From the NCBI GenBank assembly GCA_903820035.1, contig CAIJFT010000304.1, forward strand, positions 1 to 58,370: a stretch of DNA of 58,370 bases, read 5' to 3'. The notes below the pieces were generated by a model. The model saw only the letters and a program-made list of their open reading frames with translations. It was not told where the DNA came from and did not search any database. The position numbers and the translations under genes were made by a program. This stretch comes from an uncultured Opitutia bacterium. GTDB lineage: Bacteria > Verrucomicrobiota > Verrucomicrobiia > Opitutales > Opitutaceae. Every line of letters starts with the position of its first letter. Positions within the stretch are counted from its first letter, which is position 1. Positions 8,649-48,498 of this stretch are shown here, one piece after another.

Positions 8649-8877
8649 GGTACGATGCCCTCCGGGTCCGGTCCGAGCATCCGAGCGGGTGCTGTGCGGG
8701 CCGGTTCCGGGCGGCGCAGGAACGTACCACTGGCGGGGCGGGATCTCTGCGCGGGCGTTGGTAATACGTGGGCGAATCTTGACCGCGCCGGCCCGTCGGT
8801 GCGCTCTCGGCAAAATAGGCCCAACGCTCGGCAAGATGCGCGGAGCCGGCGCGGGTGCGGCGGAGTAGATTGCGCCC

Positions 8878-9246
8878 ATGAAAGCCCTCCCTCGCGAAGC
8901 CCCCGAAGCGTGGACCCGGCATTATCGGGCGTTGCTGCAAGTGCGCGACACCCTGATCAGGGAAAGTGCCGAGCGTGAAGCGGCGGCCCGCGCCGCGATG
9001 GAGCGCGGCGGCGCCGACGCGCTGGATGTCGCAAGTGAGCTCACCGAGCACGAAACGTTGGTCGCCGAGATCTCCCAGGAGCAGGCGGAGTTGGTTGAAG
9101 TGGAGGCCGCCTTGGAGCGGATCCGCCTCGGCACCTACGGCCGCTGTGAGGTCACCGGTGAACCGATCGCGCCGGAACGCCTGCAGGCGTTGCCCTGGAC
9201 CCGGTGGTCGGTGGCGGCGGCGGCCCAGCGGGAAAAGTCCCGCTAG
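8878..9246 (+). CDS. DksA/TraR-family protein lacking most zinc-finger cysteines
   Basis: A 122-aa protein with the DksA plan: a coiled-coil hairpin (residues about 10-85, with SELTEHETLVAEISQEQAEL) followed by LERIRLGTYGRCEVTGEPI and APERLQALPWTRWSVAA. The family zinc finger normally has four Cys (YGxCxxCGxxI ... CxxC). Here only the first remains; the others are replaced by Thr, Trp and Val/Ala. Members of this kind keep the RNA-polymerase secondary-channel fold or serve other roles, and I cannot say which. It is monocistronic, and a repeat element lies 6 bases downstream. Confidence 0.8.
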   Translation: MKALPREAPEAWTRHYRALLQVRDTLIRESAEREAAARAAMERGGADALDVASELTEHETLVAEISQEQAELVEVEAALERIRLGTYGRCEVTGEPIAPERLQALPWTRWSVAAAAQREKSR

Positions 9247-9252
9247 AGCGGT

Positions 9253-9312
9253 GCGACGATTCCTTTCTCCGCGTTTGAGCCGGAGACGAAAACGTGGTCA
9301 CGCCTGAGGACC
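9253..9312 (-). repeat. dispersed intergenic repeat, copy A
   Basis: Read on the minus strand, these 60 bases match the stretch at 19309-19369 at about 50 of 60 positions by eye, including CTCAGGCG, GACCACGTTTTCG and CCGGCTCA. The copy lies directly after the DksA-like gene. A third, weaker copy lies at 12021-12075. Confidence 0.65.
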
Positions 9313-9338
9313 ACGTTGTCGTTCCGCTCCAACGTGGT
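9291..9338. promoter_or_regulatory. three alternating complementary 8-mers (mutually exclusive hairpins)
   Basis: AACGTGGT (9291-9298), ACCACGTT (9310-9317) and AACGTGGT (9331-9338) are perfect complements in alternating order. The middle arm can pair with either flanking arm, giving two competing 8-bp hairpins. The element partly overlaps repeat copy A and lies 124 bases upstream of hemN. No obvious terminator or ribosome site is attached, so a switching role is only a possibility. Confidence 0.4.
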
Positions 9339-9461
9339 GACGACCGTTGGGAAAGCGCGGTCGCACCGAGAGGACGGGTGGCGCTTGGGCTCCGCAATAT
9401 CTGCGCGCAGCCTCGCAAACGCTGCGGAGCGGCGCTTTTGGGCGGCTGACATACTTCCGTC

Positions 9462-10856
9462 ATGCCCACCGCGAGCGAACCCGTCCCGCCAGGTCTGCAG
9501 CTCGATTTGATCAAGAAGTATTCCGTGCCCGGACCCCGTTACACGTCGTACCCGCCGGCGACGCAGTTTACGGAAGACCTGCCTCCGCTCGGGCTCGAAG
9601 CGGCGATCGCGGCCGACAACCGCCCCGGCGGCGGGCCGATCTCGCTGTATTTCCACCTGCCGTTCTGCGAGACGCGGTGTTGGTTCTGCGGGTGTAACAC
9701 GGTGATTACGCTGAAGCGGGATTCCGCCGGCGAGTACCTGGATGATCTCGCCCGCGAGGTGAAGCTGACCGCGGCCCGCATGGACTGCGCGCGGCCCGTG
9801 ACCCAGATCCATTTCGGCGGCGGCACGCCGACGTTTTTCCCACCCGACGAACTGCGGCGGCTCGGCGCGTTGATCCGCACCCACTTCCGGCCGGCGTCGG
9901 AGTGCGAGTTCAGTGTGGAAATTGATCCCCGCCGCCTTTCCCGCGACCACATCGCCGCACTCGCTGAGATTGGGGCCAACCGCGCGTCGCTCGGCGTGCA
10001 GGACACCAATCCGCGGGTGCAGCTCGCGATCCATCGCGTGCAGCCGCACTCCGACAACCTTCAGGCGTTCGCCTGGCTGCGCGAGGCGGGCTTTACCTCG
10101 ATCAACGTCGATCTGATCTACGGCTTGCCGCTGCAGACGCCGGCAACCTTCGACCGCACCATCGACGACGTCCTGGCGCTCGGGCCGGACCGGCTTTCGG
10201 TGTTCAGTTACGCGCACGTGCCTTGGATCAAGCCGTCGCAGAAAATCTTCGACGACCGCGCGCAACTGCCGGGACCGGAAGAGAAGTTGGCGATGTTCGC
10301 CGTCGCGCACCGCAAGCTCACCGCGGCGGGTTTTACGGACATCGGGCTCGATCACTTTGCGCGGCCCGACGACTCGCTGGCGGTGGCGCAGCGCGCCGGC
10401 ACCCTGCATCGCAACTTTCAGGGCTACAGTACGGCGGCCGGCGCCTCGCTCTACGGATTCGGCATCTCCTCGATTTCCTCGACGCCCGACACCTACCGGC
10501 AGAACCACAAGTCGGTGCCCGAGTGGCGCGCCGCCCTCGCTGCCGGCACGCTGCCGGTCGAGCGCGGCCTCCGGCTCACGCCGGAAGACGAACGCCGCCG
10601 CACGATCATCATGCGCTTGATGTGTGATCGCCGTCTGGATTTCGCCGCACTGTCCCGCACGCTGGGCGTTGATTTCGGGCGGACCTATGCGGCGGAATGT
10701 GCTGGCCTCGACGATCTGGTGGCGGACGGCATCGTCGTCCGGACCCCTGCCGGCATCGAGGTGACGCCCGCCGGCGTGCCGCTGCTCCGGATCATCGCGA
10801 TGCGGTTCGATCCCCACTTCCTTTCGGCGCCGCGCCGGCATTCGCAGGCGATCTGA
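9462..10856 (+). CDS. hemN: oxygen-independent coproporphyrinogen III oxidase (radical SAM)
   Basis: A 464-aa HemN. It decarboxylates coproporphyrinogen III to protoporphyrinogen IX anaerobically with SAM and a [4Fe-4S] cluster in the cytoplasm. The HemN-specific N-terminus GPRYTSYPPA, the radical SAM motif CETRCWFCGC, FGGGTPTF, VEIDPR, SLGVQDTN, NVDLIYGLP, DRLSVFSYAHVPW, DHFARPDDSLAVAQR and LHRNFQGYSTA all match E. coli HemN more closely than HemW. Length is normal. It belongs with the FAD-type protoporphyrinogen oxidase at 13992-15371, giving the last two steps toward protoporphyrin. No FNR box was found upstream. Confidence 0.95.
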   Translation: MPTASEPVPPGLQLDLIKKYSVPGPRYTSYPPATQFTEDLPPLGLEAAIAADNRPGGGPISLYFHLPFCETRCWFCGCNTVITLKRDSAGEYLDDLAREVKLTAARMDCARPVTQIHFGGGTPTFFPPDELRRLGALIRTHFRPASECEFSVEIDPRRLSRDHIAALAEIGANRASLGVQDTNPRVQLAIHRVQPHSDNLQAFAWLREAGFTSINVDLIYGLPLQTPATFDRTIDDVLALGPDRLSVFSYAHVPWIKPSQKIFDDRAQLPGPEEKLAMFAVAHRKLTAAGFTDIGLDHFARPDDSLAVAQRAGTLHRNFQGYSTAAGASLYGFGISSISSTPDTYRQNHKSVPEWRAALAAGTLPVERGLRLTPEDERRRTIIMRLMCDRRLDFAALSRTLGVDFGRTYAAECAGLDDLVADGIVVRTPAGIEVTPAGVPLLRIIAMRFDPHFLSAPRRHSQAI

Positions 10857-29588: not shown

Positions 29589-29637
29589 TTGATCCGCATC
29601 AAGGCCCCGACGACGGGACCGAGCTATAGTCACTCCC
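29589..29637 (+). promoter_or_regulatory. FNR/Dnr-type box and promoter of the RIC gene
   Basis: TTGATCCGCATCAA at 29589-29602 is a perfect FNR/Dnr palindrome. A good -10 (TATAGT) lies at 29625-29630, 36 bases from box start to -10 start. This puts the box centre near -41.5 relative to a transcription start around 29637, which is class II activation. The ATG at 29639 would then be within a few bases of the 5' end, a nearly leaderless mRNA. Confidence 0.8.
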
Positions 29638-29638
29638 C

Positions 29639-30361
29639 ATGTCCACCACTCTGTTTTCCCCCGCAACCACGCTTGGCGCCATGGTTGCCGCTCACCCGCT
29701 GCTCTCCCGCGTTTTCGAGCGCATCGGGCTCGACTACTGTTGCGGCGGCAAACGCACGCTGGCCGAGTCCTGTGCGGCGAAGGGACTCGATGCCGGAACC
29801 GTCGCCGTGATGCTCGAGGTCGCCGTCGCGCGGCCGAGCGCGGTGCCCGTGGTTGATGCCGCGGGTATGACGTTGGTGGCGTTGGCGGATCACATCGAGG
29901 CCACGCACCATGCGTATCTCCGCGATGAATTGCCGGCCTTGGTCGAGAAGGCCGATCGCGTCGCGGCCAAACACGGTGAACGCGATCCACGGCTCGCCGC
30001 GGTGGCGACGACGATGCGCGCATTAACCTCGGAAATGTTCAGTCACATGCTGAAGGAGGAGCAGATCCTGTTTCCCCTCGTGCGCACCTTGGAGCGCGAC
30101 GGCGAGGTCGGCGGTCCGTGCGGCTCGCTCGCGCATCCGATCCGCCAGATGGAAAGCGAACACCACGGCGCGGGCGCGGCGGTGGCGCGCATGCGGGAAC
30201 TGACCGACGGCTTCACGCCCGCCGCCGACGCGTGCAACACGCACCGCGCGCTGCTGGCCGGGCTCGCGGGCCTCGAACTCGACCTGCACGAACACGTGCA
30301 CAAGGAAAACAACGTTCTCTTTCCGCGCGCGCTGGCGCTGGAGGCGCAGTTGGTCGCCTGA
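29639..30361 (+). CDS. ric: RIC-family di-iron Fe-S cluster repair protein (ScdA/YtfE/DnrN)
   Basis: A 240-aa cytoplasmic protein that restores Fe-S clusters damaged by nitric oxide. The N-terminal ScdA_N domain has GLDYCCGGKRTL. The haemerythrin-like domain supplies the di-iron His/Glu ligands (DHIEATHHAYLRDELP, HMLKEEQILFP, SEHHGAGAAVARMREL, LHEHVHKENNVLFPRAL). It is the first gene behind a perfect FNR/Dnr box, as expected for NO-stress genes. The gene symbol follows the RIC (repair of iron centres) family name. Confidence 0.93.
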   Translation: MSTTLFSPATTLGAMVAAHPLLSRVFERIGLDYCCGGKRTLAESCAAKGLDAGTVAVMLEVAVARPSAVPVVDAAGMTLVALADHIEATHHAYLRDELPALVEKADRVAAKHGERDPRLAAVATTMRALTSEMFSHMLKEEQILFPLVRTLERDGEVGGPCGSLAHPIRQMESEHHGAGAAVARMRELTDGFTPAADACNTHRALLAGLAGLELDLHEHVHKENNVLFPRALALEAQLVA

Positions 30362-30444
30362 CAACCTGGGATTTTCCGCCGGGCGGAGACGGGACTTGTA
30401 TGCGTCCGGTGCTCCGCCGAGAATTCCCGCACCGCACCCCGGAT

Positions 30445-31782
30445 ATGACTGTTCTGCGCAAATTCCTCCTCCTTGGCGGCATCTGGCTGTTAGGCGGAAC
30501 CGGCCTCTGCGGCCAAAGCACGCCGGATTACGAGCAGGCCCCGGTCAGCTATTCCGAAACCACCGCCCGCGACCGGCTCGCGCGGCAGCTGGCCCGCATC
30601 GCCTCGGGTGAAATCAAATTTGCCGGCACCGACCAGGAGGTCCTGCGCACGCTGCTGCAGGTGATGGAGGTGCCGGAGGAGACGCAGATTTTTGTTTTCT
30701 CTAAAACCAGCCTGCAGCGCGGGCGTATCCGCCCCGAGCGGCCCCGGGTGCTGTATTTTTCCGACTCGGCGTATGTTGGCTGGGTCCCTGGCGGGCTGAT
30801 GGAGGTGACGGCAATCGATCCCGAGCTGGGTCCGGTCTTCTATTCGTTCGACCTCGGCCCGACGCGGGAGAAACCGCCGACCATCATACGGGAGGGTGAC
30901 TGCCTTCGCTGCCACGGCGGCACCTTCGTGCGCGACGTGCCCGGCGTGTTTGTGCGTTCGATTTTCCCGGACGCAACCGGCGAGCCGCTCCTCCGCCACG
31001 GCACCGTCGTGGTGGATGACGAGACGCCCTTCGACCAGCGCTGGGGCGGCTGGTACGTGACCGGCTACAAGGGAAGCGAGCCGCACCGCGGTAACTCGTT
31101 CGCCTCGGAGAAGGGCGATCAACTTGTGTTTACGCCCTCGGGCCAGCGGCCCGATCAGCTTTCCGGTTTCTTCGACACCACCGACTACCTGCGCCCCACG
31201 AGCGACATGGCGGCGCTGCTCGTCGCCGAGCATCAGATGGCGATGCAGAATTCGATTACTCGGGCGGGCTTCGTCTGCCGGAAGATGCTCACTTACCAGC
31301 GCGGGCTGCAGACGACCTTCAAGGAGCCGGTGACCGAGGAGCCGGCCTACGACAGCGTGAAGAGCGTTTTCGCGAGCGCGGTGCAGGACGTCGTCGATCA
31401 TCTGCTGTTCCGCAAGGCCGCGTCGTTGCCGGACGGCATCGTGAGCAACGCTGATTTTAAACGTTCGTTTCCCCAGGGCGCGCCACGCACCCGCGCCGGT
31501 CACTCGCTCAAGGATCTGCAGTTGCAGGACCGCATTTTTGTCCAGCGCTGCAGCTACCTCATCTACGCGGAATCCTTCCAGGCGCTGCCCGAGGTGCTGA
31601 AGGTGCGGATTTTCGAGCGCCTGCGTGACGCCTTGCGCAGCACAGATCCGCAGGAGCGCTACGCTTACCTGCCCGCCGCCGAGCGGCAGCGCATTTACGA
31701 GATCCTTTTCGAAACGCAGCCGGACGCCCGCCGCTATTGGTCCGCGCGGCCTGGCGCGGTCGGGCCTGCTCGGACGGAATAG
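30445..31782 (+). CDS. exported protein with one haem c motif
   Basis: A protein of about 445 aa with a signal peptide (MTVLRKFLLLGGIWLLGG, cleavage near GLCGQS) and a single c-type haem site, CLRCHGG (C-x2-C-H), at about residue 155. Conserved-looking neighbours are RVLYFSDSAYVGWVPGG, FVRDVPGVFVRSIFPD and QRWGGWYVTGYKG. I do not recognise a named family; it looks like a periplasmic mono-haem cytochrome-like protein. An ATG at 30400 is in frame, but the start at 30445 gives a cleaner signal peptide. It lies 83 bases downstream of the RIC gene on the same strand and may share its FNR/Dnr-controlled transcript. Confidence 0.72.
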   Translation: MTVLRKFLLLGGIWLLGGTGLCGQSTPDYEQAPVSYSETTARDRLARQLARIASGEIKFAGTDQEVLRTLLQVMEVPEETQIFVFSKTSLQRGRIRPERPRVLYFSDSAYVGWVPGGLMEVTAIDPELGPVFYSFDLGPTREKPPTIIREGDCLRCHGGTFVRDVPGVFVRSIFPDATGEPLLRHGTVVVDDETPFDQRWGGWYVTGYKGSEPHRGNSFASEKGDQLVFTPSGQRPDQLSGFFDTTDYLRPTSDMAALLVAEHQMAMQNSITRAGFVCRKMLTYQRGLQTTFKEPVTEEPAYDSVKSVFASAVQDVVDHLLFRKAASLPDGIVSNADFKRSFPQGAPRTRAGHSLKDLQLQDRIFVQRCSYLIYAESFQALPEVLKVRIFERLRDALRSTDPQERYAYLPAAERQRIYEILFETQPDARRYWSARPGAVGPARTE

Positions 31783-32056: not shown

Positions 32057-32105
32057 TTGACGCGCATCAAGGCGCGCGCGCGCCGTTCGCGGTACAACGA
32101 TGGCC
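32057..32105 (+). promoter_or_regulatory. FNR/Dnr-type box and promoter of the NOR-like operon
   Basis: TTGACGCGCATCAA (32057-32070) differs from the ideal palindrome at one base. A -10-like TACAAC lies at 32093-32098, again 36 bases from box start. The predicted transcription start is near 32105, 12 bases before the ATG at 32117. An open frame starting at 32057 would begin inside this operator and is therefore not used. Confidence 0.75.
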
Positions 32106-32116
32106 TTCCCCGCGCC

Positions 32117-33586
32117 ATGCCTGCTTCCCCTGTCGCCTTTTGTCCCCCTGCGGTCGCCCCGGCCCGCCCGGTTGTCGTCGCGTCTCCGGCCCCGGTCGCG
32201 CTCGGTGCGTCGGCCTTTCTGCCCGTCGCGGCCCGCCGCTGGTTTGTGCTGGCGGTGGGCAGTCTGGTGGTGGCGGGTTGCCTTTCGATCTCGGTGGTTA
32301 TCGGCCGAATCCCGGGGGTGGCGCGGTTCATCGACGATCCGTTGTTTTTCAAACGCTGCCTGGTGGTGCACGTCGACCTCGCGCTCGTCGTGTGGTTCTA
32401 CGCCTTCATCGCCGGTCTCAACGCCCTGGTCGCGGGCCAGCGCCGGGCCTTCGCCGGGACCGCCGGCTTCGTCATCGCCGTCAGCGGGGTCGTCGCAATG
32501 ATGGCGGGCGCGTTGATGCGTGGCGCGCAGCCGGTCTTGGCGAATTACGTGCCGGTGATCGACCATCCGCTGTTTCTCGCCGGGCTCGGCGGTTTTTTTG
32601 TCGGCACGCTCGTCTGCCTCATTGAATCCCTCGGTGCGGTGCCGCGGGCGTTTCCGGGCGCGCCTGCGGGCGAGTGTGCGACCGGGTTGCAGGCGTCCGC
32701 GGTCGCCTTTGTGCTGGCGGGTGCGACGTGGCTTGCGACGCGTGCCTGCCTGCCGGACGGGCTCGATCCGTGGACGAAGTTCGAATTCTCCGCGTGGGGT
32801 GCGGGCCACGTGCTGCAGGTGGCGAACGCCGCCGCGATGGTGGCGGTTTGGCTGTGGCTGTTGGCGCGGGCGACTGGTCGCCCGGTGCTTGGTCCGCGCG
32901 GCGCCTTGATCGCATTCGGGGCGTTGGTGGCGCCGCACCTGGTGATGCCGCTCCTCACCGCCCGCGGGGCCCTCGATACGCTCTATCATACCGGTGCGAC
33001 GCAGCTCATGCGTTGGGGCATCTTCCCGGTGGTGTCGGTGATGCTCGTGCTTGGCGTCCGGCATCTCCGGCGGCATGGCTTGGCGGCCGGCGAGCCGCTG
33101 GCGCGTTTGGCGCGGGCCGGCTTTCTGGCGAGCGCGGCGCTTACCGCCCTTGGTTTCATCCTCGGTGCCTGCATCCGCGGTTCCACGACGCTGGTCCCGG
33201 CGCACTATCACGCGTCGCTCGGCGGTGTGACGGTGGCCTTCATGACCGCCGCGTATCTCGTCTGTGCGGGAGCCGCGCGTTCGGGCCTGGCGGCGTCGAC
33301 CATCACCTCGGCCCGGCGGCAGCTCGGCGTTTTCGGGGTGGGGCAGACCGTGTTTGCGCTCGGGTTTGGGCTGGGCGGGCTCTACGGGCTCGGCCGCAAG
33401 ACCTACGCCGGCGAGCAGCACGTGCGCCGCGTCGGCGAGTACGTGGGGCTCGGCGTCATGGGCGTCGGTGGCCTCGTCGCGACGGTCGCGGGCGTCTGGT
33501 TCCTCTGGCTGGTGCTGCGCGAGATGCGCGCCTGGTGGTCGCCGCGGGCGGCCGCATCCGTTTACCCGAACCCAAACTCATCATGA
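32117..33586 (+). CDS. degenerate haem-copper oxidase subunit I homologue
   Basis: A 489-aa polytopic membrane protein (about 12 helices) that aligns along its length with the subunit I encoded at 34293. It keeps a low-spin-haem-type His85 (VVHVDLALVVW), a helix VI His231 (GAGHVLQVANAAAMVAVW) and His363/His365 (PAHYHASLGG). The His-His pair of the CuB site is reduced to Pro-His (APHLV), and there is no active-site Tyr. It may therefore bind haem but lack a normal CuB centre: an electron-transfer or structural partner, or a highly divergent NO reductase. It is the first gene of the FNR/Dnr-controlled operon and overlaps the next gene by 4 bases. Confidence 0.72.
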   Translation: MPASPVAFCPPAVAPARPVVVASPAPVALGASAFLPVAARRWFVLAVGSLVVAGCLSISVVIGRIPGVARFIDDPLFFKRCLVVHVDLALVVWFYAFIAGLNALVAGQRRAFAGTAGFVIAVSGVVAMMAGALMRGAQPVLANYVPVIDHPLFLAGLGGFFVGTLVCLIESLGAVPRAFPGAPAGECATGLQASAVAFVLAGATWLATRACLPDGLDPWTKFEFSAWGAGHVLQVANAAAMVAVWLWLLARATGRPVLGPRGALIAFGALVAPHLVMPLLTARGALDTLYHTGATQLMRWGIFPVVSVMLVLGVRHLRRHGLAAGEPLARLARAGFLASAALTALGFILGACIRGSTTLVPAHYHASLGGVTVAFMTAAYLVCAGAARSGLAASTITSARRQLGVFGVGQTVFALGFGLGGLYGLGRKTYAGEQHVRRVGEYVGLGVMGVGGLVATVAGVWFLWLVLREMRAWWSPRAAASVYPNPNSS

Positions 33587-33732
33587 AAAACGAAACCAAG
33601 GAGCCGTTCCTCAAGCGGCTGCTCGATAATACCTGGCTACTGCTCGCCCTCGGCGTGGTCGTGCCGCTCCTGTCCTACACCGCCTGGGGCTGGATTGAAC
33701 TACTGATGGTGAAACCCGCGACCTTGCCCTGA
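33583..33732 (+). CDS. small single-helix oxidase-associated subunit
   Basis: A 49-aa protein, MKNETKEPFLKRLL followed by one membrane helix (WLLLALGVVVPLLSYTAW). It is coupled to the upstream gene by an ATGA overlap and ends 11 bases before subunit II. Short one-helix polypeptides are common accessory subunits in haem-copper oxidase operons; the sequence itself matches no family I can name. Confidence 0.7.
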   Translation: MKNETKEPFLKRLLDNTWLLLALGVVVPLLSYTAWGWIELLMVKPATLP

Positions 33733-33743
33733 GCCCCCTTACC

Positions 33744-34268
33744 ATGAGCCTAACCCTTCCCGCCCGTGATTGGTACAAGCCGCCGGTTGGCGCCGAAAAA
33801 CTCTGGATCGGCCTCGCGCTGCTCTGGTGCTTCGTAATGAGCCTGATGATGCCGTACTGGCATTTTCGGGGGAAACAGAACTCCCGCGGCGAGGCCTATG
33901 CGGTGAAGCCCATGGACTTCTTCGCCCGCGCGGAGAAATTCGCCGCGGCCAACAAGGTCGGCGAACGCGACGGCATCCCGATCGCCGAGCCCGCCCCCGG
34001 CGGCGACGCCTACCTCGTGGCGCGCATGTGGAACTGGTATCCCATCCTCAAGCTCCGCCTGGGCGAGACGTACCGCGTGCACTTGTCCGCCATGGACCTC
34101 CAGCACGGCTTCTCGCTGCAACCGCTGAACATGAACTTTCAGGTGCTGCCGGGCTACGACCACGTGCTGACGCTGACGCCGACTTCGAAGGGCGAATTCA
34201 CGATCGTCTGCAACGAGTTTTGCGGCATCGGGCACGACAAGATGTTCAGCAAAATCATCGTTGAATAA
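33744..34268 (+). CDS. haem-copper oxidase subunit II with CuA site
   Basis: A 174-aa protein with one N-terminal membrane helix (LWIGLALLWCFVMSLMMP) and a periplasmic cupredoxin domain. The CuA ligands are complete: a His in LQHGFSLQP, then CNEFCGIGHDKM (C-x3-C-x3-H-x2-M). It should accept electrons at CuA and pass them to subunit I. The short single-helix form resembles B-type and NOR-like subunit II proteins. It sits 24 bases before subunit I. Confidence 0.9.
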   Translation: MSLTLPARDWYKPPVGAEKLWIGLALLWCFVMSLMMPYWHFRGKQNSRGEAYAVKPMDFFARAEKFAAANKVGERDGIPIAEPAPGGDAYLVARMWNWYPILKLRLGETYRVHLSAMDLQHGFSLQPLNMNFQVLPGYDHVLTLTPTSKGEFTIVCNEFCGIGHDKMFSKIIVE

Positions 34269-34292
34269 CCCCCGCCAACGTAACCCGTCGCC

Positions 34293-35999
34293 ATGTCTAA
34301 CTCTGCCCTCCCTCTTCCCGCCGCCGGCGCCGCGCTCACGCGCAAGTGCGATACTACGGGCCTGAACGTCTGCCTCATCGCGGAACGTTTCATCAAGCTC
34401 AACGCCGTCTGTGCCGTCGTCTTCCTTCTGGTCGGCGGCATCGCCGCCATTCTCCTCGCGCTCACCCGCTGGCAGGCGGTCCACCTTCTGCGGGTGGACT
34501 GGTTCTACCGCATCCTGACGCTGCACGGCCTGAACATGCTGATCTTCTGGATCCTCTTCTTCGAGGTCGCGGTGCTCTACTTCACGTGCACGATCCCGCT
34601 TAACGCGCGGTTGTTCTCCGCCAAGGTCGCCTGGGCGGGTTTCATCCAGATGCTCGTCGGCGCCGTGATGGTGGATTACATCATCCTGAACGGTCAGGCC
34701 GACGTCCTCATGACGAGCTACCTTCCGCTGCTCGCGCACCCGTTGTTCTACCTCGGGATCATTCTGGTGGCGACGGGCACCCTGACCGGGGTCTTTAATT
34801 TCTTCGCCACCCTCTACGTTGCAAAGCGCGACCGGACCTACGAGGGCTCGGTGCCGCTCGTCACCTACGGTGCCACCGCCGCCGCGATTATCGCCGTCGT
34901 CACGCTGTTGCACGGCGCGATCGTGATGATCCCGACGTTCACGTTCTCGATGGGGTGGACGCCGCAGCCGGACCCGATGTGGTACCGCATGATCTGGTGG
35001 GGCCTCGGCCACCAGTCGCAGCAGGTCAACGTCTGCGCGATGGTCTCGGTCTGGTATCTGATCGGCCAGTTGGCGACGGGCGCCAAGCCCCTGAACGAGA
35101 CCGTCTGCCGGACCGCCTTCCTGCTCTACATTCTGTTCATCAACCTCGCGTCCGCGCATCACCTCCTCGTCGATCCCGCCATCGGTGCGACCTGGAAGAT
35201 CTGGAACACCTCGTACGCGATGTACCTCGCGGTGCTGGCGTCGATGATCCACGGCTTCACGGTCCCGGCCTCGGTCGAATTCGCGATGCGCGAGAAGGGC
35301 CACACGAAGGGCCTGTTCGGGTGGGTGGCCGCGCTCCCGTGGCGCAATCCGGGGTTTTCCGGCGCGCTGCTCTCCCTGCTGATCTTCGGCTTTATCGGCG
35401 GCATCACGGGCGTCACGCTCGGCACCCAGCAGATCAATATCATCGCGCACAATACGCTGCGCATCACCGGTCACTTCCATGCCACCGTTGTCGGCGGCAC
35501 GACCCTCGCCTTCATGGCGTTGGCTTATTATGTGATCCCGCTGATCTTCCGCCGGGATTTCATCTGGCGTTCCGCGGCCCGGCTCCAGCCGTGGCTGTTC
35601 GGCATCGGCATTCTCTTCGTCTCGCTCGGCATGTCGTTCGCCGGTTCCATGGGCGTGCCGCGCCGCATCTATGACATCGACAACTCCGGGGCCTTCGGCC
35701 CGGCCGCGCACCTCATGCTTGGCGTGATGGGCCTGGGCGCGATTTGCGCGGTGATCGGATTGTTGCTCTTTGTGGTGCTCTGCGTCGGGACCATTTTATT
35801 CGGGGCCCGCAACGCGGGGCGGCCGATGGCGGACTGGGGCGTCGCGCAGGCCCTGCCGGGTAGCCGGGAAGGTTCCTTGGCCGATGACCATTGGGCGGTG
35901 AAGGGCACGATCGTGCTCACGGGTGTTTTCCTCGCCTGCTTCGCCGTCTACTACTTCGCCAACTGGAAGGCGCTCGCCGACGTCTGGCCGGTGCGCTGA
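34293..35999 (+). CDS. haem-copper subunit I with Tyr-to-Gln active site (eNOR-like nitric oxide reductase)
   Basis: A 568-aa, 12-14-helix membrane protein. All six haem/copper histidines are identifiable: His78 (LTLHGLNMLIFW), His240, His289-His290 (ASAHHLLVDP), His394 and His396 (TGHFHATVVGG). In oxygen-reducing enzymes the helix VI motif is H-P-E-V-Y, with Tyr four residues after His. Here it is GHQSQQVN, so Gln244 replaces the cross-linked Tyr. Loss of that Tyr is the hallmark of NO-reducing haem-copper enzymes; a CuA-bearing type with this exchange fits the family named eNOR, as I recall it. FNR/Dnr control and the neighbouring nirK support NO reduction to N2O. A low-activity O2 reductase cannot be excluded. 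Confidence 0.82.
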   Translation: MSNSALPLPAAGAALTRKCDTTGLNVCLIAERFIKLNAVCAVVFLLVGGIAAILLALTRWQAVHLLRVDWFYRILTLHGLNMLIFWILFFEVAVLYFTCTIPLNARLFSAKVAWAGFIQMLVGAVMVDYIILNGQADVLMTSYLPLLAHPLFYLGIILVATGTLTGVFNFFATLYVAKRDRTYEGSVPLVTYGATAAAIIAVVTLLHGAIVMIPTFTFSMGWTPQPDPMWYRMIWWGLGHQSQQVNVCAMVSVWYLIGQLATGAKPLNETVCRTAFLLYILFINLASAHHLLVDPAIGATWKIWNTSYAMYLAVLASMIHGFTVPASVEFAMREKGHTKGLFGWVAALPWRNPGFSGALLSLLIFGFIGGITGVTLGTQQINIIAHNTLRITGHFHATVVGGTTLAFMALAYYVIPLIFRRDFIWRSAARLQPWLFGIGILFVSLGMSFAGSMGVPRRIYDIDNSGAFGPAAHLMLGVMGLGAICAVIGLLLFVVLCVGTILFGARNAGRPMADWGVAQALPGSREGSLADDHWAVKGTIVLTGVFLACFAVYYFANWKALADVWPVR

Positions 36000-36016: not shown

Positions 36017-36997
36017 ATGTCATCCGAACCCACCTGCGTGGCCGGTGTACGCACCCCGGCGGCGGTTGCGGACGCCGCCTCCGGTCCCCGCCGCTTTTTT
36101 CTCGGGGCCGGGCTGCCGATCTTTTTGTTGGCCGGCGCGGGGCTTTATGAGGCGGTGATCGCGGCGCTGGTCCTGGCGCCGGCGGAGTGGGGTTGGCTCG
36201 GGGAATTTGCGCGGGAGTTCAAGGTGCGCTGTTTCAACTATGATCCGCGCACGGGCGGCATGGCATGGTCGGCGGTTTTCCTGATGGTGCTGGAGCCGCT
36301 GTTCATCGTCGGCGTCGCGTGGTTGCTCTGGCGGCGGGCGCTGGCCGCCGGCCGCTGGATGCAGGCGTGGCGCTCTGCGCTCGCCGGGTTCGGGGTCGCC
36401 GCGGTGGCGGTCGGTAGTGTGTTTGTCTTTGGCGCGGGAGTGGCGGCGGACGAATTGCCGCCTTTCCCCGGCGAGCGGATTCGTACGCGGCTGGCGGCGC
36501 CGGCCTTTCAGCTGGTGGACCAGAACGGGGCCGCGTGCTCGCTCGCGGATCTGCGTGGCCGGGTGGTGGTGCTCACCGGTATTTACGGCACCTGCGCGAC
36601 GAGCTGTCCGCAGATTCTGATCGAGACCCGCAAGCTGCTCGACTCGCTGCCGGCGGCGGCGCGGGCGCGGATCAGCGTCGTCGCGCTTTCGCTCAATCCG
36701 GAGTATGACACGGCCGAACTGATGCGCGCGGTGGCGGCCGGCTACGGGTTTACGCATCCGGAATTCCGATATATGAACGGCCCCCCGGCGGTGATGCACC
36801 CGCTGTTGGAGCGGCTGCAGTTCGCGCGGGTGAAGAATCCCGTCACGGGCGTGATCGAGCATGCGAACCTCTTTCAGGTGATCGATCCCGCGGGTCTCAT
36901 CGCCTATCGTTTCAATTTGAATCCCCGGCACCAGGCGTGGCTGCGGGCGGCCCTGCTGGCGCTCGCGGCGGAACCGCGGGGGCCGGAAGGCCAATGA
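36017..36997 (+). CDS. SCO1/SenC copper chaperone with membrane N-terminus
   Basis: A 326-aa protein. The N-terminal 160 residues carry three hydrophobic helices (FFLGAGLPIFLLAGAGLY, VFLMVLEPLFIVGVAWLL, ALAGFGVAAVAVGSV). The C-terminal thioredoxin-fold SCO domain has the copper site GTCATSCP (C-x3-C) and a distal His in VIEHANLFQVID. SCO proteins load copper into CuA, matching the subunit II encoded two genes upstream. Additional N-terminal helices are unusual for SCO, which normally has one anchor. Its stop overlaps the next start by 4 bases. Confidence 0.88.
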   Translation: MSSEPTCVAGVRTPAAVADAASGPRRFFLGAGLPIFLLAGAGLYEAVIAALVLAPAEWGWLGEFAREFKVRCFNYDPRTGGMAWSAVFLMVLEPLFIVGVAWLLWRRALAAGRWMQAWRSALAGFGVAAVAVGSVFVFGAGVAADELPPFPGERIRTRLAAPAFQLVDQNGAACSLADLRGRVVVLTGIYGTCATSCPQILIETRKLLDSLPAAARARISVVALSLNPEYDTAELMRAVAAGYGFTHPEFRYMNGPPAVMHPLLERLQFARVKNPVTGVIEHANLFQVIDPAGLIAYRFNLNPRHQAWLRAALLALAAEPRGPEGQ

Positions 36998-39006
36998 GCG
37001 GTCCGGAGCCGGCCGGCGACGGCGTGCGGGGCGAGGGTCTGTGGCGCCGCGTGGACGCGGGCCTCGCCTGGGTTGACGCGGTGCTGGGGCGCTGGGTGCC
37101 GGCGGAGTACAACCTGCTGGCGCATGCCGGCGCCGCGGCCAACGTCGCGCTGCTGGTCGCGGTCGGGAGTGGCGTCGCGATGTTCCTGTGGTATTCGCCG
37201 AGCCTGCAGTTTGCGCACGCCTCGTTGGCGGCGATTCAGGGGCACACGCTCGGCGGCTGGGTCCGGGCGATGCACCGTTACAGTTCCGACCTCGCGATGC
37301 TCCTGCTGGTCTGGCATGCGGCGCGCACCTTCTTTGCGCGGAAATTCAGCGGCGCGCGGTGGCTGCCGTGGGTATCAGGAGTCCTGATGCTGGCGCTGAT
37401 CTGGTTCATCGGCTGGACGGGCTATTGGTTGGTGTGGGACCAGCCGGCCCAGCAGGTGGCGGTGACGTCGATGCGCCTGCTCGACGCGCTGCCGGTATTT
37501 GGCGAGCCGCTCGGCCGGCTTTACGTCGCGGACCGCACGGTGCCGAGCCTGCTGTTTTTCGTAATTTTCTTCCTGCACATGCTGCTGCCGTTGGCGATCG
37601 CGGTGGGGTTGGCGGTGCATCTGGCGCGGCTCAGTCGGGCGCGCCTGCTGCCGCAACGCGCCTTGGCGTGGGCGGTGGTCGCGGCGTTGGCGCTCACCGC
37701 GGGTTTGATCCCGGCCCCCTTGGATCCGCGGGCGGCGATGGCGTTCAAGGCGCCGGCGTTCACGGTCGATGCGTGGTATCTTTCGCCCCTGGCCTTCGGG
37801 CTGCGTTTTCAATCGGCCGGGCTGTGGGCCGCGCTATTCGGCGGCCTCGCGCTGGGTGCCGCCGTGCCGTTGGTTCTCGGGCGCCGCCGCCCGGCCGCGG
37901 CGTATCAGGCCGAGGTAAACCCGGCCCGCTGCCACGCGTGCACCCAGTGCGTGCAGGATTGTCCGTTCGATGCCATCGCGATGGTCGTGCGGACTGATGA
38001 GAAGAATTTTCCCACGCAGGCGTTTGTCGACCCGGCCCGCTGTGTCGGCTGCGGCGTTTGCGCGGGATCCTGCGACTCGGGCGGTGTCGGTTTACTCTGG
38101 TTCGACACGCGGGTCGAGGAGGCGCGGATTGAGCAGGCCGTGGGCCGGGCCCTCGCCTCCGGCTGGATCCAGGGCGTGGCCTTGGTCGCGGCCGACATCG
38201 CCGGGCGGGTGCCGCCGCTACCGCGGTATGCCGAATTCCGTGTCCCGACGGCGAGTTGGGTGCGTTCCAGCTTGGTCGAGCGGCTCGCGCAACTCGGCGC
38301 GCGGGCGGTGGTGATCGTGCGCGGGGCAAGTCTCGAGGGCCGGGCGCGCGATGGTGGACAGTGGGTGGGGGAACGTCTGGCCGGTCGGCGGGGCCCCCGG
38401 CTGCGCCCCGATCGCTGCCCTGCGTTCGAGTGGCGCGTTTTCGACTTCGATCCGGCGCGGCCGGCTGAACTCGGGAAGGCGGCGGCGCAGCTGCTTGCCT
38501 CCGGAGTGCCGTTAGCCGGGGCGGCGCAACTCCTCCGCGCTCCGGCCCTCGGCCTGTTGCTCGCCGTTGTGGCCGCGCTCGTCGCCGTGGCGCCGAGTCA
38601 CCTGCGGGTGGCAAATCCAGCAGCGGACGAATCGGAATTTATCTTTTCGTTTCAAACCTTCGGCACCTTGCTCCCGGCGGGGGCGGAGGACGCGGCCACC
38701 GAGGCCGCCAAACCCGTGCACATGCGAGGCCGGGCCACCGCCAAGCCGCGGCGGGCGGTGGTGGTGGTGCGGCTGGAGATCGACGGCGTCGCCGCGGAGC
38801 GCGCGTTTGCGGCCAAGGGAGTTTCGCACGACGGACCGGCGATCGGGGAGTGGCGCCGGGATTGGGCCGCGGGCGACCATCGGGTGGCGGTGGAAATTCA
38901 GCCGGGCGGCGCCGCGCCCGCCGTCCGTTGGACCGGGGTCCTCCGGGCCGAGACGAGACACCTTAGCGTAATCACCTTCGATGCCTCCGGCTTTCGACTT
39001 GAGTGA
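36994..39006 (+). CDS. cytochrome b / diferredoxin / MvhD-like fusion protein
   Basis: A 670-aa protein with three parts. Residues about 25-240 are a cytochrome b N-terminal domain with two pairs of haem-ligand histidines 14 apart (His94/His108 and His195/His209) and GWTGYWLVWDQ. Residues 313-360 hold two [4Fe-4S] motifs (CHACTQCVQDCP and CVGCGVCAGSC). Residues about 370-525 resemble the MvhD/HdrD-delta hydrogenase-linked domain (WVRSSLVERLAQLGARAVVIV), although its own cysteines are few. A final helix and beta domain follow. It could carry electrons from cytoplasmic Fe-S carriers or quinol to the CuA oxidase. It is the last gene of the operon. Confidence 0.82.
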   Translation: MSGPEPAGDGVRGEGLWRRVDAGLAWVDAVLGRWVPAEYNLLAHAGAAANVALLVAVGSGVAMFLWYSPSLQFAHASLAAIQGHTLGGWVRAMHRYSSDLAMLLLVWHAARTFFARKFSGARWLPWVSGVLMLALIWFIGWTGYWLVWDQPAQQVAVTSMRLLDALPVFGEPLGRLYVADRTVPSLLFFVIFFLHMLLPLAIAVGLAVHLARLSRARLLPQRALAWAVVAALALTAGLIPAPLDPRAAMAFKAPAFTVDAWYLSPLAFGLRFQSAGLWAALFGGLALGAAVPLVLGRRRPAAAYQAEVNPARCHACTQCVQDCPFDAIAMVVRTDEKNFPTQAFVDPARCVGCGVCAGSCDSGGVGLLWFDTRVEEARIEQAVGRALASGWIQGVALVAADIAGRVPPLPRYAEFRVPTASWVRSSLVERLAQLGARAVVIVRGASLEGRARDGGQWVGERLAGRRGPRLRPDRCPAFEWRVFDFDPARPAELGKAAAQLLASGVPLAGAAQLLRAPALGLLLAVVAALVAVAPSHLRVANPAADESEFIFSFQTFGTLLPAGAEDAATEAAKPVHMRGRATAKPRRAVVVVRLEIDGVAAERAFAAKGVSHDGPAIGEWRRDWAAGDHRVAVEIQPGGAAPAVRWTGVLRAETRHLSVITFDASGFRLE

Positions 39007-43116: not shown

Positions 43117-43165
43117 TTGACCCGCGTCAAAGCCGCCTGCCCCGCAGTGTGCGAAGATGACGCCG
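43117..43165 (+). promoter_or_regulatory. FNR/Dnr-type box and promoter of nirK
   Basis: TTGACCCGCGTCAA (43117-43130) is a perfect palindrome of the FNR/Dnr type. With the same 36-base step seen at the other two promoters, the -10 would be GAAGAT at 43153-43158 (a poor match) and the transcription start near 43165. This rules against the ATG at 43157 and favours 43190 as the nirK start. Confidence 0.75.
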
Positions 43166-43189
43166 GTCAAAAAACACTTCACACCTCTT

Positions 43190-44695
43190 ATGCAAAAATA
43201 CCCCGCCGTCCGTTCCCGCATTGTTGCGCTGGCCCTGCTCGTTTCCGGCGGAGCTGCCGGCGTCCTCGCCGCGGAAGGTCCCTTGCTCGCCAAGTCCAAC
43301 GGCCGCCCGCTCGCCGCCGATCTGCCCGTTGAGGTCGCTGTCCTGACCGAGGCGCCGAACGTCCCGCCGCCGATCACCCGCCGGCACGTGGCCAAGGTCA
43401 TTGTTAACCTGGAGGTCCGGGAAGTGGTGAAAAGGCTGGCGGACGGCGTGGAGTATACGTTCTGGACCTACGGCGGAAACGTGCCCGGGTCCTTCATCCG
43501 CGTGCGCGAGGGGGACTTCGTCGAGTTTCACCTGAACAACCACCCGACCTCGAAGGTTCCGCATAACATCGATCTGCATGCCGTGACGGGGCCGGGTGGC
43601 GGCGCCGCTTCATCGTTTACCGCGCCCGGTCATTCGTCGCGCTTTTCCTTCACCGCGCTGAACCCGGGACTCTATATCTACCACTGCGCAACCGCGCCGG
43701 TGCCGATGCACATCGCCAACGGCATGTACGGTATGATCCTCGTCGATCCCAAGGACGGTCTCCCGAAGGTCGACCGCGAGTTCTACGTCATGCAGGGTGA
43801 AGTCTACACGGGCGGCCGCCACGGCGAGCAGGGCCTGCAAAATTTCGATCCCATGAAGGCCGAGGACGAGCGGCCCCCGTATGTCGTCTTCAACGGCTCC
43901 GTCGGTTCGCTGGTCGGCGACAAGGCGCTCCAGGCGAAGGTGGGGGAGACGATCCGCATCTACTTCGGCGTGGGCGGACCGAACGTGACGTCGTCGTTTC
44001 ACATCATCGGCGAAATCTTCGACACGGTCTATGTCGAGGGCGGTACGGTCGCGCAACACCACGTGCAGACCACCATGGTGCCGGCGGGCGGATCCACCGC
44101 GGTCGAGTTCAAGGTGGACGTGCCCGGCACGTTTATCCTCGTCGACCACTCGCTGTCGCGGGCCTTCAACAAGGGCGCGCTTGGCATGCTGAAAGTCACC
44201 GGGCCCGACAGCCAGTTGATCTACTCCGGTAAAGAGGTCGACGAGGTCTACATCGGCCAAGCTTCGGATGCGGGCTTTGCGGCCAGCAAGCGCGAGTCGG
44301 AACTCATGCTGCAGAAGGAAAAGGCCATGGCGTCCAATCCGCAGATTGCGAGCATCACGAAGGAGATCCAAGTGGAGCGCGGCAAGAAGGTCTTCCTCAC
44401 CTCGTGTTTCGCCTGTCACATGGCCAACGGCGAAGGCCTCCCGGCGGTGTTTCCTCCGCTCGCTGGTTCGGATTTCCTGAAAGCCGACAAGGACCGGGCG
44501 ATCAAGATCGTCACCAAGGGGCTCAGCGGCCCGGTCACGGTGAACGGGAAATTATTTAACAATATGATGCCGCCGCAGGAGTTCTCCGACGATCAGGTCG
44601 CCGATGTCCTCACGTTCGTGATGAATACGTGGGGGAATGATTTCGGCACCGTGAACGTGAACGACGTGAAGCGGGTGCGGGCCCAGAACAAGTAA
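43190..44695 (+). CDS. nirK: copper nitrite reductase with fused cytochrome c
   Basis: A 501-aa periplasmic enzyme reducing nitrite to NO. A signal peptide ([19 protein letters not shown]) begins the protein when started at 43190. The two-cupredoxin core has the type 1 Cu ligands His125, Cys166, His174, Met179 ([22 protein letters not shown]) and the type 2 ligands His130, His165 and a His in SSFHIIGE. The catalytic Asp128 is also present. The C-terminal 110 residues form a class I cytochrome c with [11 protein letters not shown] and axial Met in NNMMPPQEF, a tethered electron donor known in several NirK subtypes. nirV follows 4 bases later. Confidence 0.95.
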
Positions 44696-44699
44696 TCCC

Positions 44700-45515
44700 A
44701 TGCGCCCGACCACCGCCACCGCCCTGGTCCGCTGCTGGCTCCGCGGGATCGGAGCGGCGGCCGGTTGCGCACTGGCGGCGGCGGGGTGGGCGGAAGACCG
44801 CGGCGGCGACGGCATGGTGTTGATCCCCGCCGGGGAGTACCGGCCGCTGATCCGCAGCAAGGACGAGCCGGAGCGGGTCGCGGTGGCCGCATTCCGGCTC
44901 GACGTCCGGCCGGTCACGAACGCCGAATTCCTCGCCTTTGTCCGCGCGCACCCGCAGTGGCGGCGTTCCCGGGTTAGCCGGTTGTTCGCCGACCCGGGCT
45001 ACCTCGGTGACTGGGCCGGAGAGCTGGAGCCCGGGCCGCGGGCGCCGGCGGATGCGCCGGTGGTGCGCGTATCCTGGTTCGCGGTACGGGCCTTTGCCCA
45101 AGCCGCGGGTAAGCGTCTGCCGACCACGGCGGAGTGGGAGCGCGCCGCGGCCGCCGGTTTTACGCAGGCGGACGGTGCCAGCGAACCCGGTTTCCAGTCG
45201 ACGGTCCTCGCGTGGCTCACCCGGCCGAACCCGGAGCCGTTGCCGGTCGCGGGGTCGGGGCGCGCCAACGCCTTCGGGGCCCGCGATCTGTTGTCGCTGG
45301 TCTGGGAGTGGGTCGACGACTTCAATACCTCGATGGTGACGGGTGAGTCCCGCGCCGACTCGGGGCTGGAGCGCACTCTGTTTTGTGGGGCGGGCGCCGC
45401 GGGCGCCCGTGACCCTTCCGACTTTCCCGCGTTTATTCGCGCCGGCTTTCGCAGCTCCGTACGCGCCAACTATACCGTGCCGAACCTCGGCTTCCGCTGC
45501 GCCCAAACGCCATGA
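44700..45515 (+). CDS. nirV: NirV-type formylglycine-generating-enzyme-family protein
   Basis: A 271-aa SUMF1/FGE-fold protein with an N-terminal signal-like helix (GIGAAAGCALAAAGWA). Family features are MVLIPAGEYRP, FRLDVRPVTNAEFLAFV, VVRVSWFAVRAFAQAAGKRLPT (split here), SLVWEWVDDF and the terminal NLGFRC. NirV proteins accompany nirK in many denitrifiers and are needed for, or linked to, NirK maturation. The classical FGE catalytic Cys pair is not evident, so sulfatase activation is doubtful even though a sulfatase lies at 52902-54350. It is overlapped by the next start. Confidence 0.88.
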   Translation: MRPTTATALVRCWLRGIGAAAGCALAAAGWAEDRGGDGMVLIPAGEYRPLIRSKDEPERVAVAAFRLDVRPVTNAEFLAFVRAHPQWRRSRVSRLFADPGYLGDWAGELEPGPRAPADAPVVRVSWFAVRAFAQAAGKRLPTTAEWERAAAAGFTQADGASEPGFQSTVLAWLTRPNPEPLPVAGSGRANAFGARDLLSLVWEWVDDFNTSMVTGESRADSGLERTLFCGAGAAGARDPSDFPAFIRAGFRSSVRANYTVPNLGFRCAQTP

Positions 45516-46189
45516 AAACCACCACCGGAATTTTGATCTTTTCATTCCTAGCGGCCGCATCCGCGCAGGCCGTCGCTCCGGCGACGCCACCCTGCTGCCC
45601 TGCGCCGGAGTCTAAACCCGCGTGCTGTGCCGGGCCCAAGCCGGCCACGGCTGCCACTGCCGCCGCGTGTTGCGAGGAGCTGAAATCCGCCACGCCGTTT
45701 ACGGGGCAGTCGCTCTATCTGCTTGATGCGAAGTGGACCGACGACGCGGGCCGGACGGTCACGCTCGGCTCGCTGCGCGGTCGTCCGGTGATCCTCGCCC
45801 TGTTTTTCGCCAGCTGCGAGTATGCCTGTCCGGTACTCGTGAGCGACATTCAACGCCTGCGGAAAACGTTGCCCGAGTCCCTTCGCAGCCAGGTGCAGGT
45901 GGTGCTCGTCAGCTTCGACGTGGCGCGCGATACCCCGGCTGCGCTGGCGGCCTTTCGGGCGCGTCAGGGGCTCGACGCCGGGTGGACCCTGCTCCGGGGG
46001 GAGGCTGTTCCGGTCCAGGACCTCGCGATGCTGCTCGGGGTTAAATACAAGCAGGACGCCCGCGGGCAATTCTCCCACTCCAACGTCTTCACCGTCCTTA
46101 ACGCCGAGGGCGAGATCGCGCACCAGCATGCGGGGTTGATGGGCGATGTCTCCGAGGCCGCCAAGGTGGTCGCCGCGGTCATAAAGTAA
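45512..46189 (+). CDS. SCO-family copper protein with Cys-rich leader
   Basis: A 225-aa exported protein (signal MKTTTGILIFSFLAAASAQA). After cleavage it has three Cys-Cys pairs (PCCP, ACCA, ACCE) in residues 27-55, then a SCO/thioredoxin fold with FFASCEYACPVLVSD (C-x3-C) and His in FSHSNVFTVL. It probably supplies copper to NirK in the periplasm. The Cys-Cys pairs are additional potential copper or thiol sites not usual for SCO. The start overlaps nirV by 4 bases. Confidence 0.88.
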   Translation: MKTTTGILIFSFLAAASAQAVAPATPPCCPAPESKPACCAGPKPATAATAAACCEELKSATPFTGQSLYLLDAKWTDDAGRTVTLGSLRGRPVILALFFASCEYACPVLVSDIQRLRKTLPESLRSQVQVVLVSFDVARDTPAALAAFRARQGLDAGWTLLRGEAVPVQDLAMLLGVKYKQDARGQFSHSNVFTVLNAEGEIAHQHAGLMGDVSEAAKVVAAVIK

Positions 46190-47778: not shown

Positions 47779-48498
47779 ATGCCATTGTTATCCCGTGCTG
47801 CTGAACTGAAGCTGACCGGACTCGTCGGCACCCTGCGCTGCTGCCAGCTCTTTGGCGGGCTTCCGCTGGAGGACTTGCAGATCATCGCCGGTTTCTCGCA
47901 GGCGTTGAAACTGGCGAAGGGCGAGTATCTTTTTCACGAGGCCGAGCCTTCCCGCGGCTGCTACCTCGTGCAGAGCGGTGCGATCAACGTTCACCGGGTG
48001 AATGCGTCGGGCAAGGAGCAGGTGATCCATGTGTTTCGGGGTGGGGAATCCCTGGCGGAGGCGTCGCTGGCCTCGACGACGGGTTATCCTGCCAATGCGC
48101 GGGCGGTCGAGCCCAGCACGGTGCTACTTATTCCGAAGGGGCCGATCCTCGAACTCATCGGCCGCCGGCCGGATCTGGCGCTCCGGATGCTCGGCTCGAT
48201 GAGCCAGCATCTGCGGGTGGTCGTCGGCATGTTGGATGATCTCACGCTGAAGGATGTGGAAACGCGGTTGCTGAACTGGCTGATCAAGCACGGTCGTAAC
48301 GCCCCGCATGGCGTGATCCGGCTCGCCGGCACCAAGCGCGTGCTCGCGGCCGAGTTGGGTACGAGCAGCGAAACCTTGTCGCGGACGTTTGCCCGCCTGA
48401 AGGGGGAACGGTTGCTTGAGGTGACGGGCAATACGCTGCGGATCTTGAACGAGTCCGCCCTGCAGGCCCGATTCGGTCAGTTGTTGGGCGAAGCCTGA
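47779..48498 (+). CDS. Crp/Fnr-family regulator, Dnr/NnrR type
   Basis: A 239-aa regulator with a cyclic-nucleotide-type beta barrel (residues about 25-130), a dimer helix and a C-terminal winged helix. The recognition helix SSETLSRTF contains E-x-x-S-R (Glu198, Ser201, Arg202), the combination that reads TTGAT-N4-ATCAA in FNR. The four-cysteine Fe-S sensor motif of FNR is absent, so this is more like the NO-sensing (haem) Dnr/NnrR group. It is the probable activator of the three boxes at 29589, 32057 and 43117, and is 57 bases downstream of the DUF2249 gene. Confidence 0.88.
   Translation: MPLLSRAAELKLTGLVGTLRCCQLFGGLPLEDLQIIAGFSQALKLAKGEYLFHEAEPSRGCYLVQSGAINVHRVNASGKEQVIHVFRGGESLAEASLASTTGYPANARAVEPSTVLLIPKGPILELIGRRPDLALRMLGSMSQHLRVVVGMLDDLTLKDVETRLLNWLIKHGRNAPHGVIRLAGTKRVLAAELGTSSETLSRTFARLKGERLLEVTGNTLRILNESALQARFGQLLGEA

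Follow-up and report, generated by a model that had tools for sequence, protein, structure and literature searches.

A predicted CuA-containing nitric oxide reductase (eNOR) and a companion paralogue lacking the CuB histidine pair in an uncultured Opitutia bacterium

The window analysed here, a stretch of 58,370 nucleotides from an uncultured Opitutia bacterium, carries on its forward strand an operon built around a haem-copper enzyme. It opens with gene P (32117-33586), absent from the original prediction, which has the fold of a haem-copper subunit I and has lost the helix VII His-His pair. The stop codon of P is overlapped by the start codon of a 49-aa ORF (33583-33732) with no Pfam match, a candidate small subunit. 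Then follow subunit II, a membrane-anchored cupredoxin (33744-34268; Pfam COX2, E 4.6e-05), the 568-aa subunit I (34293-35999; Pfam COX1, E 1.1e-63), a SCO-type protein with an N-terminal extension that is a candidate for copper maturation (36017-36997; SCO1-SenC, E 8.3e-15) and a cytochrome b fused to a two-cluster 4Fe-4S domain (36994-39006; Cytochrome_B, E 6e-22, and Fer4). The last of these has two H-x13-H pairs, giving four haem-type histidines, together with Cys motifs and weak HdrA-like matches, and is a candidate electron donor module. Subunit II carries the intact CuA site that had been claimed for it, CNEFCGIGHDKM, complete as C-x-E-x-C-x3-H-x2-M, as well as a DLQHGF motif.

Named bacterial and archaeal genomes were scanned with two patterns, and the best 80 of at least 409 confirmed relatives served as a set of loci for comparison. 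Among these best 80 the CuA motif was present in the subunit II homologues of all 80 loci, a SCO homologue in 73, the cytochrome b-4Fe-4S homologue in 69 and a homologue of the 49-aa ORF in 59, lying some 0.7-0.8 kb ahead of the subunit I match in the loci for which this was listed; in this set the small ORF, subunits II and I, SCO and cytochrome b genes are grouped together across phyla. Directly 3' of the operon, 39421-41961 matches adenosylcobalamin-dependent ribonucleotide reductase (TIGR02505, 219 bits, under the cut-off). On its 5' side lies a 446-aa ORF (30442-31782) that contains a single CxxCH haem c motif and matches nothing in Pfam, even at E 1; a homologue of it is also found upstream of eNOR in locus L037.

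All six metal histidines claimed for subunit I were found in the alignment, H78 in helix II, H240 in helix VI, H289-H290 in helix VII and H394 with H396 in helix X. Helix VI reads WGLGHQSQQVN and, as predicted from its GHQSQQVN stretch, a Gln (Gln244) occupies H+4, the position of the cross-linked Tyr of oxidases. Identity to the Defluviimonas, Thermus and Thermomicrobium plasmid homologues was 45-53% over the aligned subunit I. Across 121 aligned rows, in which some genomes appear twice, H+4 was Gln in 97 and Tyr in 24, the latter coming from plasmids of haloarchaea, Deinococcus, Geobacillus and proteobacteria, from other Verrucomicrobiota and from the organism's own genome. The QQ-N motif with Gln was seen in 80/80 loci of the named genomes (again the best 80 of at least 409), a count that is not independent, because one of the two search patterns takes in this motif of helix VI as far as H+3. 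The alignment indicates that Gln at H+4 of subunit I is no chance variant.

An alternative reading would be an O2 reductase in which Tyr has been replaced and some other residue acts as the radical donor. The closest solved sequences to subunit I are those of B-family ba3 oxidases, and its relatives on plasmids are annotated as subunit I of a cbb3-type or b(o/a)3-type oxidase, both of which would fit such an enzyme. In haem-copper O2 reductases the cross-linked Tyr sits on helix VI in the A-family and most of the B-family, and on helix VII in the C-family. However, the position used by cbb3 enzymes, which lies six residues ahead of the His-His pair of helix VII and was set here from the cbb3 subunit of the same genome, held Ile in 83 and Leu in 14 of the 97 Gln rows and Tyr in none; the check for an alternative active-site Tyr attached to the original prediction thus found no substitute there. 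Against this alternative also stand the oxidases already present in the genome, which by eye read as aa3 and cbb3 types, the nirK gene, the RIC gene and the FNR-type boxes of the window, and the fact that Gln at this position is the published eNOR criterion in the relevant part of PMC8756737. We consider a Tyr-less O2 reductase very improbable. One eNOR-like subunit I, from Thermus thermophilus plasmid pTthSNM6-6b (L007), reads GHFKGT in helix X, with Lys for the second His; this His, by homology a ligand of the low-spin haem, is kept in the other 96 of the 97 Gln rows.

For class assignment, 57 of the 121 aligned rows were picked for spread and placed in a tree, with long rows flagged, L007 and L008 among them. 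The window sequence fell inside a clade of 38 Gln rows (support 100/99), its neighbours being Verrucomicrobiota and adjoining genomes of its own genus, while 16 Tyr-bearing B-family O2 reductases formed a separate clade (100/95) and three A-family rows lay outside. The tree placement that had been asked for puts the enzyme within the Gln clade and outside the O2 reductases, the clade being named eNOR by the Gln criterion and curated eNOR, bNOR, sNOR, gNOR and c/qNOR rows lying outside the scope of this tree. An O2 reductase class for 34293-35999 was rejected on the Gln at H+4, the helix VII Ile/Leu and the tree. Judged from sequence, we are highly confident that the genes at 33744-35999 encode eNOR, a CuA-containing NO reductase related to the B-family haem-copper O2 reductases. 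The candidate eNOR of the original prediction is borne out by the Gln criterion and the tree placement, with NO reductase activity as a prediction from sequence, and the enzyme very likely reduces nitric oxide to N2O.

The eNOR class of the window enzyme is well supported, and the class itself is already known. It corresponds to a ba3-a1 subtype reportedly treated by Hemp and Gennis (2008) and Murali et al. (2024). A passage of PMC8879329 describes the ba3-a1 subtype as having NO reductase activity and as renamed eNOR, and eNOR is reported as biochemically characterised. The text of PMC8756737 identifies eNOR by Gln at the active-site Tyr position; its Table A4 lists Tyr for O2 reductases, Glu for cNOR and qNOR, Asn for sNOR and CuANOR/bNOR and Asp for gNOR, and gives eNOR one predicted proton channel. 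Since the active-site residue here is Gln, cNOR/qNOR (Glu), sNOR (Asn), gNOR (Asp) and CuANOR/bNOR (Asn) were rejected. The cNOR and qNOR enzymes have haem c or a fused quinol subunit and are not known to carry CuA. They share with the window enzyme the conversion of NO to N2O and membership of the haem-copper superfamily, and differ from it in having Glu instead of Gln (PMC8756737, Table A4). The published eNOR enzymes and that of the window have in common the Gln at the Tyr site, a CuA-type subunit II just upstream, kinship with the B-family and, in some genomes, an association with nirK; the window locus differs in being verrucomicrobial and in having its operon headed by the CuB-less paralogue P, which goes unmentioned in the passages on eNOR consulted here. 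The ba3 oxygen reductase of Thermus thermophilus has a small one-helix subunit. This B-family enzyme supplies the closest solved sequences and shares the six histidines and CuA, whereas B-family ba3 enzymes carry Tyr at H+4 and B-family rows form a clade of their own (the Thermus enzyme not being among the rows).

Electrons would enter at the CuA of subunit II and pass to a low-spin haem held by H78 and H396, and from there to a binuclear centre with a haem on H394 and CuB on H240, H289 and H290. At this centre two NO would be reduced, yielding N2O, with no need of the cross-linked Tyr radical that the splitting of O2 requires; Gln244 would stand in its place. We infer both the electron path and the steps of NO reduction for the window enzyme.

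The genes for the preceding step lie in the same window. The nirK gene that had been claimed (43157-44695) matches TIGR02376 at 344 bits, over a cut-off of 296.3, and encodes a fusion of a copper nitrite reductase with a cytochrome c domain (Cytochrom_C). Genes for an FGE-sulfatase-like and a further SCO protein follow it at 44700-46189, and the same trio of nirK, FGE-sulfatase-like and SCO genes was seen at nirK homologues in several related loci. A gene for an iron-sulfur cluster repair di-iron protein of the RIC/YtfE type, a nitrosative-stress gene, lies at 29639-30361 (TIGR03652, 214.2 bits; cut-off 204.7), and a Crp/FNR-family regulator with cNMP_binding and HTH_Crp_2 domains at 47779-48498. 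This regulator is a candidate reader of the FNR/Dnr-like boxes of the window, of which there is a perfect one before the RIC gene (29589-29602), one with two mismatches before nirK (43117-43130) and one with a single mismatch, TTGACGCGCATCAA, in front of the eNOR operon (32057-32070). The promoter box claimed earlier does exist; it precedes gene P, though, 46 bp before its start codon, and stands 2.2 kb before subunit I. At up to two mismatches the window holds 20 such boxes, whereas 100 shuffles averaged 6.54 and all stayed below 20.

Within the best 80 of at least 409 relatives, 37 loci have P directly before eNOR. A box before P was found at up to one mismatch in 12 of these 37 (background windows, 1.7%) and at up to two mismatches in 24 (random windows, 9.1%). 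All 12 loci with a box at up to one mismatch are verrucomicrobial, and only 3 of the 13 other loci have one at up to two mismatches; FNR-type regulation is thus supported for the Verrucomicrobiota only.

Five COX1 matches were found in the organism's own genome and were read by eye as an aa3-type oxidase, a cbb3 oxidase, a partial cbb3-like subunit, eNOR and P. As all five read as other types, no c/qNOR was found among them; a search for NosZ with one model, TIGR04246, brought up nothing beyond subunit II and NirK, both matched weakly. Neither absence is final, because the genome, at 98% completeness and 4.43% contamination, is split over 469 contigs. With NirK, eNOR and no NosZ match, the claim that nirK and eNOR together complete the route from nitrite to N2O is likely to be correct, with N2O as the predicted end product. 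NirK would produce the NO, and a Crp/FNR-type regulon would switch on the genes for NirK and RIC together with the eNOR operon.

Similar gene sets have been described. In Ardenticatena, eNOR and NirK are encoded in one operon (PMC4653789). Verruconatronum alginivorum, a cultured isolate that like the present organism belongs to the Opitutales, is stated in part of PMC13274419 to grow by reducing nitrite to N2O, for which it has NirK and a homologue of eNor; it differs in that two eNor genes are listed for it. Many putative eNOR genes are misannotated as cytochrome c oxidase, according to a passage of PMC8756737, and eNOR has already been counted in a genome survey, as a section of PMC12569097 indicates. 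As eNOR genes are often labelled as O2 reductases, producers of N2O can be missed, and the present locus shows a verrucomicrobial genome with a clear set of genes for the conversion of nitrite to N2O. N2O is a greenhouse gas. As to its kind, the identification of eNOR is firm but nothing unusual; of the two, it is the companion gene P that deserves following up.

Gene P falls barely within the COX1 family (E 7.5e-09; 35.4 bits against a cut-off of 34.8). We take its start to be the ATG at 32117, as the 509-aa start of the ORF finder, at 32057, falls inside the FNR-like box. A set of 85 P sequences, nine of which duplicated a protein already present under another locus id, left 76 distinct sequences for ligand counts. 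All 76 keep H85 (helix II), H231 (helix VI), H363 and H365 (helix X) and the R427-K428 pair, and 75 keep Gln234. The helix VII His-His pair was present in none of the 76, with a His in that stretch in 14, the window's P included. P therefore lacks the six histidines required of a catalytic subunit I, and a standard CuB site is not possible in it. The helix X and helix II histidines and the Arg-Lys pair belong, we presume by homology to oxidases, to the haem sites; with them in place, P could hold two haems, one of them low-spin, and H231 could be a ligand of the other haem or leave a pocket open for NO.

An AlphaFold model of P, made with 41 sequences, had a pLDDT of 90.2 and matched oxidases and one NOR (4xyd) in the PDB with Z 26.6-29.3 over about 400 residues, a match that cannot tell the families apart because oxidases and NOR lie within about 3 Z units. 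The P profile against PDB sequences found 18 Thermus ba3 chains and 7deg (best E 2.3e-07). A 55-row tree was made of 18 of the 41 P rows and 37 others, picked for spread and with L147, whose ligands are altered, left out. In it P formed one clade (100/100) that grouped with eNOR (100/99), while eNOR held at 95/88 and the B-family at 93/96. AU tests, with topologies chosen after the tree was seen, rejected a grouping of P with the B-family (p 0.009) and a placement of P outside eNOR plus B-family (p 0.008). The depth of P in the tree is less sure, because of a long stem and the odd composition of several P rows, the window's among them. These results suggest that P is an ancient paralogue of the catalytic subunit, a sister family of eNOR that has lost its CuB ligands.

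A decaying duplicate without function might be expected to show just such a loss of CuB ligands and the faster evolution that we found for P relative to subunit I. However, dN/dS was 0.13-0.33 in 12 pairs of P, as compared with 0.02-0.17 in 11 pairs of subunit I (one of 12 was omitted for a stop in the stretch used), and the four His, the Arg and the Lys are invariant in all 76 distinct sequences. P is under purifying selection, and a functionless duplicate is highly improbable; P as a pseudogene was rejected on the dN/dS values and the invariant ligands.

The distribution of P was analysed in the same loci and in genome samples. Besides the 37 of the best 80 (of at least 409) loci with P directly upstream of eNOR, five have it elsewhere in the locus, and in 38 no P was found, six of these having under 2.6 kb upstream. 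By their titles the P loci in this set come from Verrucomicrobiota, Myxococcota or Deltaproteobacteria, Spirochaetia, Planctomycetota, Nitrospirae, Rokubacteria and Gammaproteobacteria, nearly all as MAGs. The plasmid collection gave no match to P with the window's sequence or that of L093 as query. P and eNOR were found in 8 and 9 of 387 genomes of Verrucomicrobiota (both in 8; Fisher p 7.8e-16), in 26 and 29 of 235 of Myxococcota (both in 24; p 9.6e-26) and in 30 and 24 of 274 of Gammaproteobacteria (both in 19; p 2.1e-17), the p values ignoring shared ancestry and each sample including a centre genome chosen for having both. Four to six top candidates were scored per genome, and P may be missed in genomes with eNOR only; set aside were G423 (20 bits with an internal stop; Verrucomicrobiota), G501 (117 bits; Gammaproteobacteria) and COX1 relatives under 200 bits. 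Apart from that 20-bit match, none of the 378 sampled Verrucomicrobiota genomes without eNOR has P. Direct eNOR searches confirmed eNOR in P-bearing L158, L162, L164, L165, L167 and L169 and gave no match in 11 of the 30 P-bearing gammaproteobacterial genomes, on which count a strict binding of P to eNOR was rejected. Thus P and eNOR tend to be found in the same genomes in three lineages, without being strictly tied to each other.

What P does is our inference, and an auxiliary haem subunit of eNOR, serving electron entry or NO handling, stands slightly ahead of a general helper or sensor, the two being nearly tied. As a physical eNOR subunit, P would be a haem protein devoid of CuB, passing on electrons or binding NO, and one half of an unequal related pair in the manner of CydA and CydB, the unequal pair of related subunits in cytochrome bd. 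Its place at the start of the operon and its overlap with the small ORF would suit this role, as would its position directly upstream in 37 loci and nearby in five more, the presence of eNOR in 8/8, 24/26 and 19/30 of the P genomes of the three lineages and the invariance of the haem-type residues. Against it stand the 38 of the best 80 eNOR loci in which P was not found and the 11 gammaproteobacterial P genomes with no eNOR match. We lean towards the subunit only tentatively.

In five gammaproteobacterial P regions without an eNOR match, the fetched 8-14 kb held COX1 genes in L198, L199 and L200, SCO and COX15/CtaA genes in L199, UbiA-type prenyltransferase genes in L199 and L200, and PCuAC and SCO genes in L201. 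With oxidase, copper or haem genes near P in four of the five regions, P may have a wider role, and a general haem-copper helper or sensor, such as one that supplies haem or copper or a membrane haem sensor, is about as conceivable. A gene for a bacterial-like globin (PF01152) directly after P in L093 (5436-5807), a gammaproteobacterial locus with eNOR nearby, would also fit a helper or sensor. The strong association of P with eNOR in three lineages speaks against such a general role, as does the lack of P in the eNOR-less Verrucomicrobiota genomes. So does the fifth region, L197, from a gammaproteobacterium without an eNOR match, where P lies near a multihaem cytochrome (8412-9752, PF13447) rather than an oxidase. 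The PF13447 family includes hydroxylamine oxidoreductases, and if the L197 cytochrome is of this type it would be another NO-related setting for P.

If P is an eNOR subunit, it can be asked by experiment whether eNOR is larger than the two-subunit enzyme of the literature passages at hand, and P would add to the superfamily a haem-copper relative without CuB. We recognised no description of P in the open literature; Murali et al. (2024), outside that search, may mention it. A census of haem-copper sequences discarded those without six histidines, as stated in a part of PMC3084760, and a census of this kind would hide P. In its fullest form, which we hold more loosely than either role taken singly, the proposal is that P founds an unrecognised haem-copper branch, sister to eNOR and spread over about seven phyla, which may have lost CuB, kept both haem-site histidines and the helix VI His, come to feed electrons or NO to eNOR as its unequal second subunit, and been overlooked through the six-histidine census.

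At the start of another contig of the organism's own genome (L004, G000:C234), the partial COX1-like subunit mentioned above reads RHLIGG in place of the helix VII His-His and is followed by cytochrome c ORFs; it may represent a second altered system of the organism, of cbb3-like type.
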